Of a DNA stretch of 64,000 nt, positions 4,995 to 57,957 are shown in pieces. The position numbers and the translations under genes were made by a program. The notes under the pieces are model-generated. The model was not told where the DNA came from. It saw nothing but the letters and a program-made list of their open reading frames with translations, and ran no database searches. Every line of letters starts with the position of its first letter. The stretch's first letter is position 1. The DNA comes from Isoetes taiwanensis (lineage: Eukaryota > Streptophyta > Lycopodiopsida > Isoetales > Isoetaceae): assembly GCA_021234155.1 (NCBI GenBank), contig JAJEKV010000161.1, positions 401,316-465,315 of the forward strand. Direction: 5' to 3'.

Positions 4995-5360
4995 TTAGCA
5001 GAATAGAGAATGGAGAATAATCTCAAATGCCCTGAAGGGGAGAACCTGATTTGGTTGCACTCCACTATCTGAATCTTCATCTTGATCAGAGTCAGGCACT
5101 ATTTCCACATTGCTGCAAGCTATTTCAGTTGATTTGGAGACGTTCCCACATGCATTCAGGCCTGGCATGAATTTAAGTATGCCAGGATCATTCTTGGCTC
5201 TATTTGGATCTAAGCCATTAGCTACGCACAATTCAATCAGTTGTGCCTTAGTAGGCTGCGAGCTACTGTGCTCCAGGCCATTCCTTCTAAGGAATTCTAT
5301 CAACTTATGCCTGGTCTGCCCCTTATTGCATGCGCCCTCAGGTCGGCCAGCCTTACTCAT
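4995..5360 (-). CDS. Small SAP/HeH-like, AT-hook-like protein, unknown function
   Basis: 121 codons from ATG at 5360. Residues 3-15 (KAGRPEGACNKGQ) resemble an AT hook. Residues 16-50 hold two helices, LIEFLRRNGLEH and KAQLIELCVANGLDPNR, reminiscent of SAP/HeH DNA-binding folds. After residue 75 the protein is acidic (DSDQDEDSDSG). A good splice donor (AATCAG|GTTCTC) follows this acidic stretch, so the last residues in the plain frame may be intronic. A TATAAAA box at 5392-5398 (minus) lies about 35 bp upstream of the ATG and is conserved in the broken paralogue. Start and promoter are therefore better supported than the 3' end. I infer a nuclear DNA-binding role. Confidence 0.5.
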   Translation of the reverse strand: MSKAGRPEGACNKGQTRHKLIEFLRRNGLEHSSSQPTKAQLIELCVANGLDPNRAKNDPGILKFMPGLNACGNVSKSTEIACSNVEIVPDSDQDEDSDSGVQPNQVLPFRAFEIILHSLFC

Positions 5361-5391
5361 GTCTCAAGAGATAACATAAGACATTGTTCCA

Positions 5392-5398
5392 TTTTATA
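5392..5398 (-). promoter_or_regulatory. TATA box of the SAP-like gene
   Basis: TATAAAA on the minus strand upstream of the ATG at 5360. The broken paralogue has the same box at 2654-2660 at almost the same distance from the homologous start, so the spacing is conserved between copies. Confidence 0.5.
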
Positions 5399-5640
5399 GC
5401 CTTCAGCATACGCTTAATTCCATTAACCCATAATCAGGCACTAGTCAATCAGTTTTAAATATGTCTTACAAGAAAATTATCTAAAACTCCTTTCAATCAG
5501 TTACCTGTAGCTTTCAATCCAACCTGGCTCTGGCCGATTTGCATGGCCCATGTTGCCGGAAAAGCACTTCCGGAATCGTCATCCTGTTTTCGCTCAAGGC
5601 GGCCGTGAACACAGCTTCAACATTTAGGGTTAGCTTAAAA

Positions 5641-6460
5641 ATTTAAGGGTTTACTACCATCGTAAACATATGAAAGATAGCTATTTAGCTATTTTACAAT
5701 TTAATTATTTAATTAAGCAGACACAAAAGGGGATAAATACAACCATTAGACATTTTGAGCAATCTCTTTGCATTCTTTAGGCCTAGATAAAACCAATATT
5801 TGTCATAAAATACCCGTATTATTGCTATTGTATCCTATCATTATGCAAGAAGCCCCATAAAAAGGCAGTCGAAAGAACATGTCCATACGTTTAGTTCAAA
5901 ATACAAATGGTATATCAAGACATATTTATACTCAAATATCCATAGAAGTTGCAACCTGCTTTAACTAGTCCTACTTTATCTGCCCAAAATATCCTTCATA
6001 ACCCTTGGGTAAATTATATCCCCAAGTTCATAGTTCTGCTGCAATGGAACATTCTATCCAGCATTTTAAGCAATCATAGTTTTTTAAGGAAACCTAACCT
6101 TATCCGTCCAAACTTGCATTATTGTGCCTCTACTTCTGCATTCATTTTTCCAGTGAAGGTCCTGCTTCTCAAATAATAGTCTGCATATCTCCAGTTCTTC
6201 CATTAAACGAAAATTAACCATACCCATAAACATAGACCTAATGCCAGTTGCAACCTGGTACCATCAACTTATATTAGTGCATGTTTTGAAGTAGTACTCC
6301 CAAATCACATAAACTTAGTCCGATTGGTTAACGAAACATAACCCTGCCAACAAAACCAGCATATTTACCAAGCCATATTTACCCTGTCTTAATGATCTGG
6401 TCATAGATGCAAATTAGAAAACTTGAGTGATGTTGCCAGCTGTACTAGCTGTAAGTCAGC
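5641..6460. other. AT-rich stretch, no gene seen
   Basis: No coding stretch, RNA gene or repeat end recognised. Short open frames near 5949-6176 lack any familiar domain. Confidence 0.5.
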
Positions 6461-6469
6461 TGCTCGCTT

Positions 6470-6839
6470 TGAAAATGACCTTCGCGTAAGCAAAATGAAG
6501 TTTCGCTTACGCGAAAAAAATAAAAATATTATTATTATTATTATTTTTCCGCGTAAGCAAAACCTAAGTTTCGCTTACGCGAAGGTCATTTTCGCGTAAG
6601 CGAAACTCAGGTTTCGCTTACGCGAAAAAATTTTTGCGTAAGCGAAAATGAAGTTTCGTTTACGCGAAATTTTTTTTTGAATTTCGCGTAAGCTAAACCT
6701 TAGTTTCGCTTACGCGAAATTTTTTTTTTTCCGACTGGCAAGGGAAAAATACGAGAAATACGTATTTTGTCGTAAAATACATATTTGTCGACTTTATACG
6801 TAAAAAATTTTTCATTTATACGTACAGAACCTATCCCTG
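6470..6839. mobile_element. Truncated hAT-like MITE (right end)
   Basis: The right end 'gaacctatccctg' (6827-6839) is identical to that of the complete element at 16940-17534, and both carry 'tacgtattt' motifs. The body is an array of small palindromes built from 'tttcgcttacgcgaaa' and its complement (6480-6720), with poly-A/T spacers. The left terminal repeat is missing, so the copy is 5'-truncated or rearranged. Dense subterminal repeats fit hAT transposase-binding regions; that role is inferred. Confidence 0.6.
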
Positions 6840-6840
6840 G

Positions 6841-7470
6841 TGTATCTATCGCGAGTCCTCATCCCGAGAATGTCAACAACAAGGTGCTGCGCACGGAGGG
6901 TTGCCTTCTGGTGGCCCGAGGGTGAAGTGGCTGAAAATTCATGTTTTTATAATGTACATTTAAATCAAGATTGCTACTTCAAAAGGCCTTCAATTCATAA
7001 TCCAAGGTAGACTTGAGAGGGAAGGGGTGATCACACCATTGACCAACCTCCAGAGGGGCTGGTCATGCGTGCCACACTACAAAAAAGACCTCTATAACAA
7101 TGAAGGGGCTTGTCACGCGTGCCAGGCGCATATATATAGAAGTAAGAGAAACAACAGTATTTATAAAGATGAATCCAATATGAAAATGTATCTATAGTAA
7201 TAACAGATGTACCTGATGATGTATCTACACAAATAACGGACAGAATATGATGTATATAAAAATAATCCAATATAGATGAAGCCCAAGAAGAAATAAGGAC
7301 AATCTGGGAAAAGAGGGAAAAAAAGGGGGATGGGCGGGTTTGCCCAATGAAACTCTACTGCTGTGAGACTAGAAAGGACAAAATATATATCGCTCGTCCT
7401 CTCCCGAGAATCTTGATCCTACGGTGTGGATTGATATGCATTCTCGGGATGAGGGCTCGCGATAGACACA
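6841..7470. mobile_element. ~630-bp element with 32-bp terminal inverted repeats
   Basis: 6841-6872 is the reverse complement of 7439-7470 with two mismatches (core 'tcatcccgagaatg'). A third, direct copy of the motif lies at 7391-7412 ('cctctcccgagaatc'). No transposase-like frame is inside. A non-autonomous inverted-repeat element is the simplest reading. No clear target duplication is seen. Confidence 0.5.
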
Positions 7471-9256
7471 CACAACAACACAGGCTGAAAAGAAGAGAAC
7501 TCTACTCCCATCACAGGCCTAACGTCACTAAACATCGACAAGGAGAGAAACGATGTGTACGCCCGAAGGAAGAAGAGAGAAAAAGGAGATGAAGTCGCGC
7601 GGTGGAGTGTGGGTCGAGGTCGCGGTCTCAAGAGGCCGGGTTCGTGAGCGTGGGCCTGGGGCGTGAGGCGAGGTTGCGTTTGCGGTTGCGGTCGTGGTCG
7701 TGGTCGTAATATGTCAACAAGAAATACGTTTCGCCCTCAATAACCCGTACAATCCTAAAGCAAAGGCGAAAAGAACGAAGTATGAGTCCCGAGATAGTGG
7801 AAATCGAATCCTATGAACAGCGATGCAGCAAAACCACTTGCACTAATTTAGCTAACACAAGTACCTAATGGGAAAATGATAACCACTAGAAGCCATGACG
7901 AGCAACTCTTGAAATGATGCCAAATCAAAAAATGTCGTGATTTTAACGAAGATATGTGCTCGAGAAATGAACTGGCTAAAATAACGTGTTATAAATACAA
8001 TCAACAACAACAAAAAAACCATATTTATCAACCCATAAGAGGAGAAAGCAACCCTTACAATGCACAACTGACTCAACTACGCATGGCATGCTAAAGGGGG
8101 CATTGGACTCGAACTTTTAGACTGGACTTGCAGGATAGATCATATAGTCAAGACGTCGTCTGATTCAATGGCTTGCTAAAATCAATTTGGCCCTAACAAT
8201 TCTTAAATTATCGTTGGTCATCGTCGGCCACGTGGCTCAAGAATTACATACAAGAACACCTTTCGGATCTAAATCACGAGATCTAGATTTTGATTAACTA
8301 AGCTATTTGTTGGCGCCAATCAAGCGATTTGTTCTGTATATAATGGCCAGCATTCATTGTCTTCCGCAGACAGTTTCTCTAGTGAACTATTGGTATCTGG
8401 AACAAAAGGTGATTCTGGATTCGCATTTGGTTTTCCTCCAACTCCATTAGTGAACATCACAGATTTGATTTTGATATAAGAATATGTATGCTCTTCCACA
8501 GACGCACAAACTTCACAAGACAATCATGTCGATCAATGAAGCTACTCCATCCCCGGCTTAACCTTCACCCCAACCCTACATTTCTGCTAGTTAAAAAATT
8601 CTTGTGTATTTGCCTTGTTTGACTTAAAAAGCTTGTATCCATCCACTAATCGTCTAGAATAATATTACATGTTACAACTTACTTATAGCATTCAATGACA
8701 AGCTATTAATTATATGACAATTTTGATTATTTTCATGCAGTGTTCTTCTAACGATCAAGCAATCAACATGGATAGCATACAGAAGACGACGATCGACAAA
8801 CGCAAGACATGATGATGTTCATGAGCATATATGTAAATTTCTTGATGGTGCAACAGGAGGATAATTGTTTGAGGCGCTTGTTGATGGATGAGCTAAGTTT
8901 TGAGGACATTTGAGCATTTTTTGGATGCACGCTTCGAGTGAAGGTAAATGGTGGGTTGAACCTAGAAGCTTTACTTGGTTTGACCGATTTATGATGTCTT
9001 ATTATGATGATCGTAGATGGAAAAAGACTTTCAGAATGAAAAAAATCTACTTTCATATTTTAATGCAATAGTATTCAAGATGAGATTAGAAAACAGGACG
9101 CACATTATAGAAAAGTCGTCCCTGTGACTGTACGCGTAGCTTGTGGCCTTTACAAGCTCTTCAAAGGTTGTGACTATATGGTATTATCTGAAAAGTTTGG
9201 TATTGGCAAGAAGTGAAGTGAAGTATATTATGTCCATGGGAGGCCTAAAAGGCCTA
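7471..9256. other. Stretch without recognisable genes
   Basis: It contains a GC-rich patch with 'gtcgtggtcgtggtcg' microrepeats near 7680-7710 and otherwise AT-rich DNA. No domain is recognised in any short frame. Confidence 0.45.
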
Positions 9257-48993: not shown

Positions 48994-49580
48994 TCAATCA
49001 AGTTGCTGTAAATAGTCTGTATCCTGGGGCATGCATCTAGCAATGGCTGACCACATGACCACATCAGGTTCCAAAGGAAAGCTAGATACAAATTCTTCTC
49101 CTTCAGTTATCCAGCCAATACGTCCAAGAAGGCCAACTATAGATCCATAACGTTCTGCAATCCCGCTGGTGTCAAAAGTTCCAATAAAAGAAAGGAATAT
49201 ATGAAAGCTCTCATCAAGAAACCTTGCATGACTGCATGCACAAAGAATGCAAAGAATTGTAACACTGTCAGCTTTTGCACCATTTTGCTGCATTTTGTTA
49301 AATAACTGAAGGACCTCTTTTCCCTGCCCGTGATGGCCATATATTGCAATCATAGCAGTCCATGTCAATGTATTCTTTAGAGGCATCTCATTGAACATTT
49401 TCTGTGCATCCTCTAAACTTCCGCACTTGCCATACATGTTGATGATTGCAGTCCCAAGAACAATATCCGGTTCCAGGCCACTAGTCATAATGCTTGTGTG
49501 AACTGGCCTGCACTCCTCTAGAGATGTTAGGGAGGCACATGCATTCAACATATTTACGAATGTGACCTTATCTGGCTTAA
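48994..49580 (-). pseudogene. PPR protein gene, 3' part, cut by element 2
   Basis: PPR proteins bind organellar RNA. This part reads FKPDKVTFVNMLNACASL, LGTAIINMYGKCGSLEDAQK, WTAMIAIYGHHGQGKEVLQL and so on to ...DVVMWSAIARCM and a stop; a full E/DYW tail is absent. The apparent start upstream of 49580 lies in the transposon. The 5' part is at 57954-58690. Joining the halves with one TTAA gives the uninterrupted local frame QQCLKPDKVTF, exactly the expected PPR pattern. Confidence 0.85.
49577..49580. other. TTAA target duplication, left
   Basis: TTAA directly outside the left terminal inverted repeat of element 2; its partner is at 57954-57957. TTAA is the hallmark target of piggyBac and Kolobok transposons. 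Confidence 0.75.
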
Positions 49581-49813
49581 AACAGGATTGCAAATTAAAC
49601 GAGAGTGTTGCGCCGCTCTCGTTTCAAACATTCCTTTTAAAAAACACTACTCTTTCAAAAAGCGGGACATTTTTAAAAAAGTCCATCACTTTGGAAATCT
49701 TTACACTCTCGACATGCAATTTCTACCCCCCTGCAACTTTTTAACTTCACATCTCTTGGCAAGGTTTGCCAAAAGTAGCTCTTTTTGACCATCGATGTTA
49801 ATTTATAAAAGAT

Positions 49814-50038
49814 AAAGTCTAAAAAACATCAAGCTAGAGGAAGCTAAAAAACTTTCTGCACTTATTTTTGAAAAAATCTGAATTAGGAATATCAACATTC
49901 AACAATTTCAATCAATTGCAGGCTACAAAGTCTAAAAACATCAAGCTAGAGGAAGCTAAAAAACTTTCTGCACTTATTTTTGAAAAAATCTGAATTAGGA
50001 ATATCAACATTCAACAATTTCAATCAATTGCAGGCTAA
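49814..50038. repeat. 113-bp near-identical tandem duplication in element 2
   Basis: 49814-49926 and 49927-50038 differ by one A in a homopolymer and the last base. It lies just downstream of the methyltransferase stop codon. A recent slip or duplication. Confidence 0.95.
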
Positions 50039-50071
50039 ACCACATGGAAGTCATAATTTAACAGAAGGAAA

Positions 50072-53000
50072 TTAAGTAAAGTCATATGTAATTTCATCAT
50101 CATCATTTTTGCTTGGCTGACCACTCTCTTGCACTACTGATTTCTCCTTGTCAGGTGACTTGTGCTTTTCTGTTGTTTCTTCTTCTACAACAATAACCTC
50201 AGCTACTTCCTTAAGCTCAACGAAAGTGGCTTCATCACTTAAGCAGCTCGTAAGTGGAGGTTGCACCTCGGAAGACGTCAGCTTGGCAAGGTCTGAAGAT
50301 GATTTGGCCCCAAGCTCTTGGTTCTCATCTGGAAGAGTTGGTAAGGCAGCTAGTCTAGTTTTTATGAAGTTGACGGCCTCTGCATCAATGTCCACTGCTA
50401 CACAATTACGACCTTTTTTAAGTGCACAAGCAATTGTAGTACCAGAGCCAGAGAAAGCATCGAGCACCCAATCTCCTGGACGGGAAAACATATCCAGGAG
50501 ATGGTTGATTAGCTTTTGTGGTTTTTGGTACTGGTTTACAATCCTGCCTTGTGCAGTAGGGTCTTGCAATTTCTGTAGAACGGCCGGAAATTCCAACACA
50601 TTGGAAAAATTTTGACAAGCAGCAGTGTTAAAATGATCCATGGTTCTTTTACCATCAAAACTCCAATAAGCAACATGAAGATATTCGACCTTGCTCAACA
50701 GCCTTGGCCCTCCACCATGGTAGTTTATATTAGTTTTGTACCTGCATCAGAAATATTGGCAATTTAACAAAGGCAATCCTATTCTGGAATAAGAATGCAT
50801 GATGTATCGTCTTAAGAAAACATTCAAACTAGACATGTTTGGATAGGTGCAAGAAAATTACCAGACGAGGTTCTCAAATCCTGCTTGTGTAGGAGAACCA
50901 AAGTGCTTAGCAAAATTTGACTCCACCAAACCAGCTTGCATGCTTGAATGAAAGACTACCAACCGCCAATGCTTTGCTGTTGTCACTTCCTTGATGCCAT
51001 TAATAAAATCATTGAATTCTAAATTTTTAAATGATTCATCATCATAACGGCTGTCCTTTAGCTTAAACCCATAAGGAAGATCTGCAACTACAAGTGTAAA
51101 GTCTTGGGGCTTTACCAAGCCAGCAAGTCTTCTACAGTCACCCTGTTGGATTGCATATAAATTATTTTGGTCAAACATTGTAAACCTTTCATAGTCAGAG
51201 GGAGCCACGGGGACCACAGCTCTTCTGGAAGCTAGTGTTCTTTCCTCCCTTGCTGTCCTGACCAAGTTCATGAAGCCCTCTGGCAAATCCTTGTTCTTCT
51301 TCTTATTCTGTACAGATTAATTTGTTGTGAGTCAACCAACAGCTTTCTCAAACAACAAGGCAATTTAAAAACATACCCAGCCTTCAAAGTTTGGAGCATA
51401 TTGAGCAATCTTTTCATCAGTTGTCGAGCTAGGGTAAAGCTCTCTGCATCTTTCCCAGGTCTCAACATTCAGTTGTTCCATTAAGCAAGTTTGGCAGGTA
51501 ATAACATTTTTTTGGCTGCAGACATTCTAATGTTAGCTATTTTGTAAGCAATCCAAAGAAATGGTGAATGGCATAAAATAAATACTTATTCCAGAATACA
51601 ACAAAGGTAAACAGAACATGGTAATCAGGTGCAAACAAGTCGATAAGTCAAAAACCTTTCTGAATAGCAAGTCACAAAACAAAGAATGTAAAGAAAGGTA
51701 TTCCAAAATAACTAAACTGTTAACACAATAATGTTTTTTCAAGAAACATCACTTACTTGTGCATTTCCTTTGACATTTCCTCTAAAGTGAAGTCCTTATC
51801 CACAACTTTTTGCAGCAACCGTTCTAGCAACACAGTATCTGTAACACCTTGCAGTTCCCTCCAAACAGTAATGGTCATCTCCTTTTTGGGAACATCAGAA
51901 CCTTTCTTCTTGTCCGAGACCTTCCCTTTAGTTTTCAGCTCCCCCCTTTCAAACATGTTAAATATTTCATTCTGCAAGTCCCAAAGCTGTGAAAACAAGC
52001 AAGTTTTGTTAGCACAAAGGATCGAAGCACAAGACAAAGTCTATTCCGGAATAAAAATTTATCTTACCCGACCATCCCTGAAGGCTAATTGAAACCAGTT
52101 GTCGTGGGAGATAAGCGACTGTCTTTTGTTTGCCTCATCATATTTAAGACAACATTCAATGGCACACGCTTCCTTTAGCTCCAAAGAACAAGCAGGTTTT
52201 TTCATGAACCCCTCTCCATATTTTTCCTTAAAAATAAGGTACTCCCTATGCATGAACCGAATTTTATCGACAAAGCTCATCTTCAATTTATACTCATTGT
52301 CAGCATTGTGAGTGTTGGCAATGATCTTTGCTTCTTCATCGGTCAAACCAACATAGACTGCACAAAGAACAGAGAGGTACCTAGGGTTGCAATTTTCTTT
52401 GTACAATTGTCTCCTTGCCTTAAAACTATGATTTCCACCAAGCACATAATGCAAGTAGCTCTCTGCATTTTCTTTGTCATAGTCTTCAGGGCTTTGACAC
52501 TGCCCTCTGTCCACTAAAACCACAAGAGGGGCCACATGTGCGTTGGGGTTGCTTCTAATTCGATCCTTCAGATTCCTCAAATGGTCTGCATAAATTTTTC
52601 TGACCTGAAGGGGTCTTTCACCAGCAGCATTTTTTGGAGGCAACTTTAAACTTGTCACTGGAAGATAGATTACACCCTGCACATGTTTTGTTTCATTTAT
52701 CTGTTCCACCCTCTCAGCAGTCTTATCTGCCTTCTTTTCCTTAATTGCAATACCAGGAGCCTTCCCCTTGCCTTTTGATCTTTTTCTTTGTTGCTCATCC
52801 CCAGAATCATCTTCAACCTCCACTCTTTGCAAGACTCTCTTCTTTGGTTCCTTTGCAGCCACAGTGTTCCTTGGCACACTTAATCCTTCACGTATATCAG
52901 AAGTTGAAATATTTAGCTCATCATTATCAAGGCTATCGGGTTCAGCCTCTTCTTCTGAATCACTGTAACTAAAGTCTTCACTTTTTGTACCACAAATATA

Positions 53001-53415
53001 CTGCAGCAGCTGTAGTAAGGTCTTCTTGTTAAGATAGTGATTCATATACTTGTACAGATGATCAGGCATCACTCTGTCAAGTTTAAAATAATTGTCTTCC
53101 AGAATCATGAACCCCTGTGTAGTTCGAATCGACAAACGACCACTTTCTCCAGACTCAGAGGCAGCAGAGCTAACCTCGTGCATTTGTCCAATGCACACAA
53201 AATTTGAATCTCTGAGTAGGCTCCTGCCCCTTACCTCTGCTACATGTAGGAAAGTAAGGGTGGAGTACTTGTTTCTGTAACCCCTGGTGATAAACCATTG
53301 AGTCTTTGGGTTTTCATAAGTTTTTGGTGGAGCTGAAGCTTCAACTCGTGCTTGGGGATGAGGTGTGCTTGATTGACCCTTGTGTTTTCTCTGCTGAGAG
53401 TCCTTTTTGTTAGAC
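50072..53415 (-). CDS. ParB-like domain fused to beta-class DNA amino-methyltransferase
   Basis: Five exons join with matching phases and consensus sites: 53415-52068, 51986-51757, 51515-51377, 51307-50862 and 50741-50072. They give about 944 open codons; a first exon upstream of 53415 is not identified. Domains: charged KR/DE-rich region (residues ~140-240); ParB-like domain (~250-380) with VIYLPVTSLKLP, YVLGGNHSFKARR and DEEAKIIANTHN; linker; then the methyltransferase, with motif IV DLPYG (~648), motif X NQYQKPQKLINHLL (~780), motif I DAFSGSGTTIA (~817) and motif II VAVDIDA. The order IV-X-I defines the beta class (M.HinfI/CcrM type), and DLPY points to N6-adenine rather than N4-cytosine. 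The acidic tail ends ITYDFT. All key residues are present, so activity is plausible. Such fusions are known from phages. Confidence 0.85.
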
Positions 53416-53663
53416 CTGCACCATATAAATAAAAATTGTAAGCAAGTAGCTTCAAAGTACAAAGTTTTCAAGTTTGTCACTCATTTTACTGTAAAATGCT
53501 TCAAAATTATCCTAGTTTGCTAAAAAGAATGCTAAAAACACTCCTTATAACAATTAAAAACTACTCTTAACAGCTTCAATTTAACACATTTTTTTGCTAA
53601 AATCTAGTAAATGTTTAGCTAAAAACTACAAATTTTTGTAGACAAGGAGAGTAAACACGCCAG

Positions 53664-54015
53664 AGTGTATTCCAGAATACACTTTGGTTGTCAGCAGAGA
53701 GCCAAAGTGTATTCCGGAATACACTTTGGCCTTGAACCGTAGGGCAAAGTGTATTCCGGAATACACTTTGCCCTCGGGAGGTAGTGAAAGTGTATTCCGG
53801 AATACACTTTCGCTTACTCCCGAGTTCAAAGTGTATTCCGGAATACACTTTGACCTCGGGCGTAAGCGTAAGTGTATTCCGGAATACACTTTCACTTGCT
53901 CCCGAGGGCAAAGTGTATTCCGGAATACACTTTGCCCTTTGGTTCAAGGCCAAAGTGTATTCCGAAATACACTTTGGCTCTCTGCTGACAACCAAAGTGT
54001 ATTCTGGAATACACT
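53664..54015. promoter_or_regulatory. 352-bp palindrome holding nine phased 20-bp palindromes
   Basis: Nine copies of AGTGTATTCCGGAATACACT (minor changes in copies 1, 8 and 9) start at 53664, 53706, 53748, 53789, 53830, 53871, 53912, 53954 and 53996, always 41 or 42 bp apart. The spacers are also mirrored, so the whole array is an imperfect palindrome centred between 53839 and 53840. It lies between the divergent ParB-methyltransferase and transposase genes. Frames read through it on either strand are artefacts. Confidence 0.95.
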
Positions 54016-54249
54016 GATTGTACTTTCTACCGTACCTAAAAGTGCGTCATGCTTACCTCTCCATTATTTCGTCTATGTAGAGTGGAATACGGTTGCAGTG
54101 GGTGGCGTCGAAGGCGCTGGAGGCGGCGACTTGGTTTCTGAAAGCGGAATATACTACTGTGGCGCAAAAAAATTTCCTTTTAAAGGTGAGGTTGCACACT
54201 TACAAGTTTTCTATGTGTAACAGAATACAATTCCTGATACGTTCTTGCA

Positions 54250-54312
54250 ATTGTGTATTCGAGAATACACTTTTGTATTCTGGAATACAATAATGTATTC
54301 TGGAATACCATG
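54250..54312. repeat. Additional TATTCYRGAATA motifs near the transposase start
   Basis: Three variants in 60 bp (gtgtattcgagaatacac; tgtattctggaataca; tgtattctggaatacc), about 60-115 bp upstream of the ATG at 54368. A further copy, 'ctattccagaatacactt', lies at 57532, just after the transposase stop. Confidence 0.7.
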
Positions 54313-54367
54313 TCAACATGAAAAAAAGTTGGTTACTTATTTTAGCTTTCTTCTTTTAGTTCTGGCA

Positions 54368-57300
54368 ATGGCGGGTTCAATGTTCAACAAGCTTCCTCCA
54401 CCATTCCAACCATCTGATTCATCAAATTCTGAAGGAACCACTGTTCAAACCAGGTTTTGCTGTGAGGGTCGAACTTCTACACCTACTTCTACAAGGTGCT
54501 TGCTCCACTTGGACGAAACGCCAAGTCCATTACTGAGTAGACTGCCACAACCGTTCATCCCATCCCCTAGTCCGCCCGGGGAAACACCTCCTTTCTCAGC
54601 CACTCCTCCTGTTTCTACTAAACTTCCAGCACCTTTTGTTCCTTCCCCTGAAGCTACAGAGGTACCACCTCAACGATTTGTTCAGAGTACGCTACCCCCG
54701 TCTTTTGTACATTCTTCTACTTCAATCACACACAAAAGGCCAGCAGATTTCTCTGAGGATTGTCAAATACTGCACAACTTCTCCAACCAAGATCTAGCTA
54801 CAAACGAAGATAATGTTGCAGTGTTTCAATCCACAACAAGGACGATGTTTGCAGCCACACCTCTACAACATGATGCTTCAACAAGTGCTGCCACAACAAG
54901 TTACAACCCTTCTCCTCCTTTCAATATTTGCCCTCCTCCATGTCCAGGCACAACATAACGTGGTCTTTTTACTTCAAGCACACAACTGAACTCTCAAGAG
55001 GTCACCCCAAGAGTTGAACCTTCTTCAGATGATGACGACCTTGACCAAGCACAGCAACAAGGTTATGTGTTTTCTAACCAAGCTTCAAAGAAATTTAAGG
55101 TTGATTTAACCTTGCGTGCATGTTCCTCTGTAAGAAGAAAAAACCTCATGGATGAACAGAAGATGAGGAGAATTTTGAGAATAAAATGCTGCTCAAAGAA
55201 CTGCATCAGCAAATTTAACATGTCTGGACTTCGAGCAATTCGAGAAACTTACAGTTCAATGTCTCTAGCAGAACAAAATAGCTACTTGGCTTACCGTGTA
55301 AGACCAAACTACAACACCTTCTTGCACTACATTAGTGGTGAAGAGGTCTGTCAAAAATGCTTCATGCTTGTTCACCGTCTGGGCTCCACGAGAATGTCTC
55401 GTATACACAAAAGAATGGACAAGATCCCAGACATTAATTATCATTGTGGACCGAGGAGAATTGTTACAATGCATGCATTGTCTGCTGTTTCTTGGATGGA
55501 CAGATACTTTACAGAAACGTGTGAAAAGTTGCCAAACAGCGATGTGTACCATTTATCTGACAACATCACAAAAAAGGATATTTTTCGAGAGTACAAAGAG
55601 ACATGTGTCCAATCTCAACACATCTCTTATGCTCACTTTACTAGACTGTGGAAAAGTGAATTTGGCCTTGTGAAAATACCCAGGAAGCACAGGATGTCTG
55701 TTTTCTCCAAATGTGCAGAATTAAAAAGTCAGAGAGAAATGGCTAAGACAGAATCAGAGAGAAGTAAGTTAATGTTTTGTTTTCTAGGTTTCTTTTCCTT
55801 TTAAGTTGTTAACCAACTTCCTTCTTTAGATGTGGTGCAGCAGAATCTTTCTAGACATCGTGAACAACAAGCAGCAGAAAGAAGAAAGCTTGCTAAGCAC
55901 CGAAAAAAATCTTTGGAACGTCCCCTGCAATACATGTCAGTTGTGATTGACGGGATGGATCAGAAAAAGACTACCCTGCCTCATTTCCTGAACATTCCAA
56001 AAGATGTACCAGAAGAATGCTTTGTCAAAGTCCATCTTGTTGGAGCTATGGTCTTCAAAGGAAGTTTAAAGTGCAAAGTATTCTTGACATATCCTAACAT
56101 ACATGGTGATCCAAATCTCACTATCACTATACTCAATAGGGTACTGTGTGAACAAGACCAACTGCCTCCAGTTCTCTATCTGCAACTTGATAACACTACT
56201 AGGGAGAACAAGAACCAAACTCTCTTTGCATACTGTGCCATGCTAGTGGAACTTGGGATCTTCAAAAAAGTGAAGCTTGGATTCCTTCTTGTGGGGCACA
56301 CTCATGACCAGATTGATCAAATGTTCAGCAGATTTTCTGTGCGTCTTCGTAGAAAAAGGGCATTCCGACTTCCTACTCTTATTCGAGCTATTGAGGAGTC
56401 TTACACTCCAACACCTGTTGTTGAGCTGCTCCAAGAAACTGTAGATTTCAGAGAATTTGTCTTCTCCTCTCGTTCCAACAGAGAACAAGCTGTACACAAG
56501 TTGAATGATCTAACTTTTCAACATCATATCAAGTTTTTCTTGAAGAGTGGTGAAAGCTTCTTACAAGGAAAGAGGTACGCCACTACTAAAGAATGGAGTC
56601 CATCAGAGGGATTGAGATTCCTCAAACTAGTTCCAGACAGTTCCTTAGTTGAACGTGCTGAACAGATGCCTCTTAAAAATCCTAAAGAGGCCAAGCAGAA
56701 GAAAAGTACTCCAGCTGCCTCCTTGAAAGCCATTGAGAGTGGAATCTCATTGGGCTTTAAGTATTTTACAGAAGAAGACCAGAACTGGTGGAGAAGTTTC
56801 TTTCTTGAACAAAAAATTGTCAATGAGAATTTACTCCTAAGACAGTTGAAGCAACCTTTTCAGTGGCCTAATTCCTTCATCGAATCACAGAACCAGGCAG
56901 GTCCAAGTAGTGCCCCAGTAGTACTTCCAACAGTGGAAGATGAGGACCGAGTCATGTATCTTGGACCACGCCGAAGAAATGAGCCTATGGGTAATATCAC
57001 AGAAATCACTAAAGGTATGCTTATTGCTGTTCCAACTGTAGAGGATGACAAGGGTCGACCTTTTTGGATAGCAAAAGTAATAGACACGGTCAAAGAAGAG
57101 GGTTTAGTTACTAAACTTAAGATTCATTGGCTAGCAACACGTTCAGAAAATGCCTTTGAAGGAAGGTATGAGCTAGAAATGAGATCTCAAGGAAAAGGTA
57201 AGAAGTCAAAGAAGGTAGGTTGCAGGGATGAGGTAAGCCTAAGTGAAGTAAGTATTCTGTGTTATGATTTTAAGTTAAGATCTGACAATCGTCTTCGCCA

Positions 57301-57523
57301 GAGGACCATTAACTTACTAAAAAAAGCATGTAACTTTGAGGAAGAAGAGGAAGAGGATGGCAATGCTTCACCATCTGTTGATAGTGACGAGGAAGACAAC
57401 TCGAGTACTTCCTCAAGTGACAGTGAAAGAAGTGAAGGTGATGAAGATGGCATTAATGAAATAGATGATGACTTAGATCCCTCATTTGTTGGTCCTCACA
57501 CTTTACTGAACACTCCAAGGTAG
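54368..57523 (+). CDS. Transposase-like RNase H-fold protein, one nonsense codon
   Basis: ATG at 54368; exons 54368-55763 and 55830-57523 join as R-N at a 66-bp intron (GTAAGT...TTTAG), about 1029 codons. The N-terminus repeats LPxPFxPS-type motifs and is acidic near 55030. An in-frame TAA at 54956-54958 lies in this disordered part. Next comes a Cys cluster (CCSKNC; EEVCQKCF). The core follows: MSVVIDGMDQKKTTLPH (first Asp), LYLQLDNTTRENKNQT (second Asp) and FLLVGHTHDQIDQMFSRF (His/Asp). A C-terminal FWIAKVIDTVK...KIHWLATR stretch resembles a BAH/PWWP-like reader, followed by a Ser/Glu tail. The core resembles DUF7869-type proteins as I remember them; that needs checking. Inferred to mobilise element 2. 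Confidence 0.65.
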
Positions 57524-57953
57524 AGAGCAAGTCTATTCCAGAATACACTTTACTTGCTAAGTGTAAATTTTGCAAATACACTTTCCTGACAAGTGTAAAT
57601 TTTGTATGTAGTTGTAAAGATTTTATTGTGAAATTCGAAAATACCTGAACTTTTCTTACAGACTTTTCTTCAATTATTACTACAAATCAAATTCCCCTTG
57701 ATTCAGGTTTTTCTCTAAATATTTGTTTTCACGTGAAAATTTAACTGTAAAATGTGTCAGTTTTTGCTGGTAATTTGCTCTTCCTGCAAAAAAAATTTGA
57801 CAATTTTGGGGGGTTAAAACACAAAAAATCACCTCCGTTTTTGTATTTGACCTCATTTGACCCCCTTTTATGCCAAAATTTAGGGAATCTTTAGAGAATA
57901 TTCCTTTTGCTCCCGTTTTGATGATTTCCTCTCGTTTAATACGCAATCTTGTT
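57524..57953. other. Right end of element 2
   Basis: 3' flank of the transposase gene: one palindrome variant, two 'aagtgtaaattttg' repeats, AT-rich DNA and the right terminal inverted repeat at 57929-57953. The minus-strand open frame here is only the PPR frame read on into the transposon. Confidence 0.7.
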
Positions 57954-57957
57954 TTAA
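57954..57957. other. TTAA target duplication, right
   Basis: Second TTAA flank of element 2, partner of 49577-49580. Confidence 0.75.

Follow-up and report, generated by a model that had tools for sequence, protein, structure and literature searches.

A DNA transposon of Isoetes taiwanensis with a probable ParB-like/methyltransferase gene and subfamily-specific palindromes

A transposon inserted in a PPR gene

We analysed a stretch of 64,000 nucleotides from the plant Isoetes taiwanensis (positions 401316-465315 of contig JAJEKV010000161.1; genome of 1.66 Gb in 1110 contigs), hereafter the window, in which a minus-strand PPR gene is interrupted by a DNA transposon of ca. 8.4 kb (49581-57953). 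Two genes diverge within the element, i.e., a transposase gene on the plus strand and, on the minus strand, a gene for a product that joins a probable ParB-like domain to an amino-methyltransferase, and short palindromes recur between and within them (Table 1). When the flanks are joined over a single TTAA, the PPR frame becomes continuous (...FKAMLQQCLKPDKVTFVNML...) with Pfam PPR domains on both sides, and this empty-site reconstruction, in which the frame is recovered once the element and one TTAA are taken out, supports an insertion. The two ends appear in the inverted-repeat listing as a 33-nt arm pair, 88% complementary. The first-pass annotation had described a DNA transposon with inverted ends, introns and divergent transposase and ParB-like/methyltransferase genes, and this is borne out by the structure, the empty site and the further copies found in the same genome (loci named L001 onward).

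The same annotation had regarded the element as TTAA-type, by comparison with piggyBac and Kolobok, a view that the other insertions contradict. Using a fixed end motif, we found identical 4-mers outside both ends at eight of 12 loci (TTAA, GGTC, CTAA, AATT, AATG, TAGC, TAGG, and TTGA); among the remaining loci, L002 shares the site of L001 and seems short of a few bases at one end, and L003, L004, and L011 have one recognisable end. Since the eight resolved loci give eight different 4-mers, the duplication is one of 4 bp without a TTAA requirement. We thus give practically no credence to the view that the transposon targets TTAA in the manner of piggyBac or Kolobok: in its favour is the TTAA at both ends of the window copy alone, and against it are the other seven of eight duplications and a Pfam scan of two transposase stretches that returned only DUF7869. 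Kolobok is characterised by a TTAA-specific duplication together with 5'-RR and YY-3' termini (PMC9587614), and the AA...TT ends of our element would fit the latter, but its duplications, which differ across loci, make Kolobok as well as piggyBac (likewise TTAA-specific) the wrong comparison.

Sola transposons generate 4-bp duplications, have a DDD-type transposase and variable inverted repeats, mostly measure 2-9 kb and are known in the moss Physcomitrella (PMC10741241; PMC9033089). A 4-bp duplication is common to Sola and the Isoetes element (eight exact duplications at eight different sites), whereas DUF7869 is not named Sola in the libraries searched. The position of a ParB-like/N6-N4 methyltransferase gene opposite the transposase corresponds to the layout of a Sola1 element with an accessory gene, its ParB part being only probable. 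We consider the element most likely to be a cut-and-paste DNA transposon of the Sola1 kind, an assignment made by duplication and gene layout and not by transposase sequence. At L009 the element is flanked on either side by a copy of a short repeat, ca. 29 bp long by eye, that contains the TAGG duplication. L001 and L002 are situated on one contig, about 219 kb apart, with the same flanking sequence beside their ends, and owing to this shared flank they are probably segmental duplicates and not a second insertion.

The two genes and their conservation

Three motifs of the window transposase, VVIDGMDQ, LQLDNTTRENKN, and VGHTHDQIDQ, contain candidate catalytic aspartates. Across four sequences, one per subfamily, the aspartate is invariant in VVIDG(M/I)DQ, LDNTTRENKN, and VGHTHDQIDQ, with M/I as the sole variation. 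These motifs are good candidates for the DDD catalytic site that we consider probable in this DUF7869 transposase. DUF7869 was found in none of 14 control genomes, those named being prokaryotes.

The minus-strand gene (54064-50072) is predicted to have six exons and to encode 946 residues, i.e., more than the five exons and 944 codons of the first-pass annotation, the extra being a predicted 8-nt first exon. The C-terminal half of the product matches N6_N4_Mtase (PF01555, E 9.4e-18), motif IV (DLPYG) precedes the S-adenosylmethionine (SAM)-binding motif I (DAFSGSGTT), which is the beta-class order, and the best solved relatives of this part are CcrM, MboIIA, and RsrI. Judged from its sequence, this half is a beta-class amino-methyltransferase (N6-adenine or N4-cytosine). 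Single models gave non-significant matches to the ParB-like stretch of exon 2, namely PHROG 723 (ParB-like, E 0.079), TIGR03764 (ParB family, E 0.036-0.052), and Pfam DUF6551 (function unknown, E 0.009-0.11). An hhalign comparison of an element alignment (20 sequences, of which filtering left 13) with ten phage ParB sequences reached a score of 24.7 (E 0.0034) over GGNHSFKA...LTDEEAK..A..HN, a score attained by none of 100 column-shuffled controls. A five-sequence element alignment scored negligibly against one phage protein, and a profile search of solved structures with the ParB-like part found no ParB. It is probable that exon 2 carries a ParB-like domain; the profile check confirms the methyltransferase half of the fusion originally proposed, while ParB models match the other part only weakly. 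Just 3' of the methyltransferase stop codon (49822-50037) there is an exact 104-nt repeat whose second copy follows 112 bp on, and L001 aligns there as if it had a single unit.

The left-end 25-mer (commoner subtype, up to two mismatches) has 819 genome matches (391 and 428) and its reversed control none, so that further copies with the same terminal repeats, as the initial reading anticipated, do exist. The ParB exon gave 98 genome matches among 94 candidates scored of 4120, the transposase exon 81 among 77 scored of 11104, and 150 of 9907 candidates were scored in the DUF7869 search. Both genes are present, at least in part, in all 18 loci covered over at least ca. 8.4 kb (the window, L001-L011, and L024-L029). 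As L001-L009 were picked because both genes were listed there, the fair tests are L010-L011 and L024-L029: transposase remains occur in both of the loci picked by ParB alone, and parts of the ParB-methyltransferase gene in all six picked by DUF7869, five of which, with ca. 48-53% identity to the window in transposase exon 2, belong to other subfamilies, and the sixth of which, L029, is close (81%). L011 is without exons 4-6, only parts of exon 2 are seen in L026, and in L029 only a part of this exon, situated where the examined stretch ends. Methyltransferase exons were also found in all eight loci picked by transposase (three) or left end (five). Short non-autonomous copies were considered as the source of the left-end matches and rejected, given that all five loci examined have methyltransferase exons (L021 parts of exons 5 and 6 only). 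In a survey of 14 further DUF7869 loci, confined to 4.6 kb upstream of the domain, transposase exon 1 was found in 13. Contamination or misassembly of the methyltransferase exons is ruled out by introns, conserved splice sites and the many loci, and the term "captured" module understates the age of the gene, since in this genome portions of it accompany transposases from four subfamilies. Within the element copy of L029, open frames at 5060-8559 (minus strand) look by eye like a Copia-type retrotransposon.

Selection was gauged by Nei-Gojobori omega as medians over pairs of 12 copies (66 possible pairs, 7 to 61 used per exon part), retaining pairs with a finite synonymous divergence (dS) >0.15 and at least 90 sites and dropping matches with more than four stops; with saturated and very close pairs dropped and a fraction of the 66 pairs used, the values are rough. 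Omega was 0.054 for the ParB-like part (11 pairs), 0.047 for methyltransferase exon 4 (12 pairs) and 0.032 for the exon 6 core, i.e., its first 140 residues (28 pairs), the lowest of all parts, and it was 0.060 for the DUF7869 part (34 pairs). Intermediate values were obtained for the exon 6 tail (0.151, 29 pairs), the exon 2 N-terminal part (0.299, 12 pairs), the first 250 residues of transposase exon 1 (0.306, 61 pairs), the remainder of that exon (0.105, 48 pairs), and the remainder of transposase exon 2 (0.131, 32 pairs). By this measure, the ParB-like part and the exon 6 core are under purifying selection and as constrained as the DUF7869 part. Across the 12 copies mapped, the window among them, splice sites for which an exon end could be placed are GT at 52 of 52 donors and AG at 48 of 50 acceptors. 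Selection clearly keeps parts of the methyltransferase gene. Among the 20 best-scoring genome matches, 17 of the ParB exon and nine of transposase exon 2 are free of stops; this is no more than a hint that the accessory gene remains open for longer than the transposase, the matches being ranked by score and the exons differing in length.

Table 1 Features of the transposon in window coordinates
Feature	Position	Strand	Basis or remark
Target-site duplication TTAA, left copy	49577..49580		sequence; empty site restores PPR frame
Left terminal inverted repeat, 25 bp	49581..49605	+	22/25 identical to right end, by eye
Methyltransferase gene exon 6: SAM-binding motif I (DAFSGSGTT) and C-terminal tail	50072..50741	-	N6_N4_Mtase
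Methyltransferase gene exon 5: catalytic motif IV (DLPYG)	50862..51307	-	splice sites conserved
Methyltransferase gene exon 4	51377..51515	-	copy comparison, splice sites
Single palindrome, 3 mismatches	51585..51600		intron 3
Methyltransferase gene exon 3	51757..51986	-	copy comparison, splice sites
Single palindrome, 2 mismatches	52040..52055		intron 2
Methyltransferase gene exon 2: variable N-terminal region and probable ParB-like domain (GGxHxxKA ... LTDEEAK..A..HN)	52068..53415	-	genome matches; weak ParB-model matches
Nine 16-bp palindromes TGTATTCCGGAATACA, six perfect, spacing 41-42 bp	53666..54013		between genes; intron 1 if first exon right
Methyltransferase gene exon 1, 8 nt, MER	54057..54064	-	predicted: in-frame ATG before GT donor
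Three further palindromes, 1-2 mismatches	54254..54309		presumed 5' untranslated region of transposase gene
Transposase exon 1: proline-rich N-terminus and cysteine-containing region	54368..55763	+	one in-frame stop, 54956-54958
Transposase exon 2 with DUF7869	55830..57523	+	PF25273, 1.5e-51
Single palindrome, 2 mismatches	57532..57547		just past transposase stop codon
Right terminal inverted repeat, 25 bp	57929..57953	-	sequence; repeat listing
Target-site duplication TTAA, right copy	57954..57957		sequence

Palindrome arrays differ between subfamilies

The palindromes, to which the first-pass annotation made no reference, are the most prominent non-coding feature of the element. Fifteen sites within three mismatches of TGTATTCCGGAATACA are present in the window element and none in positions 1-49500 of the window. 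The spacing of the main array is equivalent to about four helical turns, and this regularity extends to other copies with the same palindrome (type A): 20 loci together have 246 sites that match the 14-bp core with at most two mismatches, and a value of 41 or 42 bp is found for 103 of the 148 spacings below 110 bp. In the 12 mapped copies, none of 160 type-A sites is exonic, though exons account for 69,206 of 109,392 bp. Genome-wide counts, which cover two of the four palindrome types, gave 3,392 exact sites of the type-A 16-mer (reversed control, 0) and 12,556 of the type-C palindrome GTATAAATTTATAC (control, 17).

Other subfamilies have other palindromes at the same position, i.e., GTATGAATTCATAC in L024 and L049, GTATAAATTTATAC in 12 loci, and CTATGCGCGCATAG in L027, L058, and L059. 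TAT-N6-ATA is common to all four types, and their centres are TCCGGA, GAATTC, AAATTT, or GCGCGC. The palindrome type follows the transposase tree, requiring five changes where the minimum is four, and none of 200 shuffles was as low. This tree was built from 33 rows covering the C-terminal portion of transposase exon 1 and has several long end branches, that of L027 being the longest; two rows carry no palindrome label, one in the C clade (L057) and one in the A clade (L029). In the type-A 14-bp core, the least conserved positions are the central CpG and the outermost G/C, and the centre may be eroding through host cytosine methylation and deamination. Elsewhere in the window, a run of TA dinucleotides is found at ~989-1060.

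Relatives and proposed role of the accessory protein

A 2025 paper describes a ParB-methyltransferase gene opposite the transposase of Sola1-1_Ec32 in the brown alga Ectocarpus; its authors suggest that the products of such genes bind to, and modify, the element encoding them, and cite green and red algal cases (Iyer 2011, Petroll 2025) (PMC12477816). Like Sola1-1_Ec32, the Isoetes element is a large DNA transposon with a second gene opposite the transposase that encodes ParB-like and N4/N6 methyltransferase domains. The algal element measures 21.5 kb and its protein 1104 aa, compared with 8.4 kb and 946 aa in this plant, and the two are likened here by description. Palindrome arrays characterise the Isoetes element and go unmentioned for Sola1-1_Ec32 in the available portion of PMC12477816. 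The initial statement that no plant transposon with such cargo was known loses its force as a claim of novelty, given this closely similar published design and the red and green algal cases cited alongside it. A search of open-licence papers found no ParB-methyltransferase transposon in a land plant, nor any measure of selection on the accessory gene or subfamily-specific palindrome arrays. DNA-modification enzymes of other classes are also carried by mobile elements, namely a 5-methylcytosine writer by retrotransposons that have captured cytosine methyltransferases (PMC5890265) and a 5-methylcytosine oxidiser by fungal DNA transposons with TET/JBP (PMC12730594).

Among prokaryotic fusions, a 404-aa protein of Wolbachia phage WOVitA1 (N6_N4_Mtase 9.4e-28; ParB_N 8.9e-5, just under the cut-off) and Bce_0392 of Bacillus cereus (PMC5512222) have a ParB-type domain ahead of N6_N4_Mtase, as the element does, but no transposase partner was seen for such phage and bacterial proteins, and the similarity of their ParB part to that of the element is barely detectable. 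Phages and plasmids yielded beta-class methyltransferases with <60% identity (two plasmid proteins were inspected, the one read in sequence being CcrM-like by eye), and a search of phages with the ParB region gave no match. A methyltransferase search of viral contigs recovered three distant loci, and in both of the two inspected the methyltransferase had no ParB part in the frame found. Scans with two peptides only gave no match to ParB and transposase profiles in viral contigs and no methyltransferase relatives in genome contigs.

We propose, with a probability of roughly 60%, that this is a transposon of the Sola1 kind whose ParB-methyltransferase, with its presumed ParB fold, would recognise and methylate the palindromes of its own family as a self-mark. 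The accessory protein would act as a dimeric reader of the palindromes of its own element, with a centre specific to the subfamily, would bind them in introns and around the divergent promoters, and would methylate adenine there. Such methylation would mark the element as self and control both promoters, and the mark may hold off host silencing or help the transposase to locate its own copies. Given that TAT/ATA is common to all four palindrome types, N6-adenine is a more likely substrate than N4-cytosine, the less probable alternative, for which a G-C pair flanks every type. An extension that we offer tentatively, and at less than even odds, is a eukaryotic parS-like system, in which each subfamily's ParB-methyltransferase would read its own phased palindrome and write adenine methylation as a self mark resisting silencing or guiding transposition, palindrome and reader changing together.

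Several observations weigh against this proposal. The window copy has an in-frame stop within the proline-rich N-terminal part of its transposase, where L001 is open. The methyltransferase motifs, initially called intact, stand in the right order with a significant profile match, but motif IV reads DLPY or DIPY where DPPY is the usual form. Omega reaches 0.548 in methyltransferase exon 3 (nine pairs), of which misaligned decayed copies may be the cause, and 0.258 in exon 5, the motif IV exon (seven pairs), i.e., moderate constraint. A plain hidden Markov model of the same ten phage ParB sequences did not place the element sequences above shuffles, single-sequence structure models of both proteins were very poor (pLDDT, the predicted local distance difference test, 35.9 and 35.5), and a search of solved structures with both element profiles produced no convincing match. 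Half of the survey loci (7 of 14) showed no ParB match within 4.6 kb upstream of DUF7869, so that either copies lacking a recognisable ParB exon are frequent or this stretch is too short, and no repeated palindrome was seen in two of the 14 (L050 and L057). Co-divergence with the palindromes also holds for both genes, with no preference for the ParB-methyltransferase over the transposase or a host factor.

This last point lends itself to a reading in which the palindromes are bound by the transposase, or by a host factor, and the ParB-methyltransferase has a separate job. As the palindrome type tracks the tree of the transposase itself, the transposase is an equally good reader on co-divergence alone. 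The palindromes, however, lie mid-element, in introns and untranslated parts and not beside the inverted ends, which suits promoter or chromatin control over end pairing. Bacterial ParB proteins bind 16-bp palindromes, and this, together with sites between the genes and in introns instead of at the ends, makes the accessory protein the better candidate reader; we regard the transposase or host-factor reading as unlikely, albeit the most serious of the rivals.

Other functions for the accessory protein appear less plausible still. The ParB domain of Bce_0392 has non-specific nicking endonuclease activity (PMC5512222), and the ParB-methyltransferase could by analogy be a nicking or DNA-processing enzyme in transposition and not an epigenetic marker; with the strongest constraint of all parts in the exon 6 core, the SAM-binding half appears to matter, and we consider this reading improbable. 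Passenger genes are common in plant transposons, and the weak to moderate constraint on exons 3 and 5 would agree with a captured gene that is passive cargo without function for the element. This view is largely refuted by the low omega values found for the ParB-like part, for exon 4, and for the core of exon 6, by the association with transposases of four subfamilies, and by the conserved splice sites.

The preferred reading, a ParB-methyltransferase acting on the palindromes of its own family, concerns a real element whose kind was previously described from algae, and ParB-methyltransferase transposons are extended from algae to a plant. The candidate self-recognition code is testable, and we did not find it in print. 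The presence of N6-methyladenine in plant DNA has been questioned (PMC12695648). Here, an abundant family (819 left ends) encodes the appropriate class of enzyme, whose ParB-like and SAM-binding parts are constrained, and as the exact predicted target occurs at thousands of genome sites, long-read methylation calls could be tested against a sharp prediction. The four subfamilies with their four palindromes offer matched reader-site pairs for studying how a self-recognition code changes. If the parS-like extension is true, they would provide naturally occurring, orthogonal DNA-recognition pairs with sites at thousands of places in the genome, in which reader and palindrome change together whenever a new subfamily arises.

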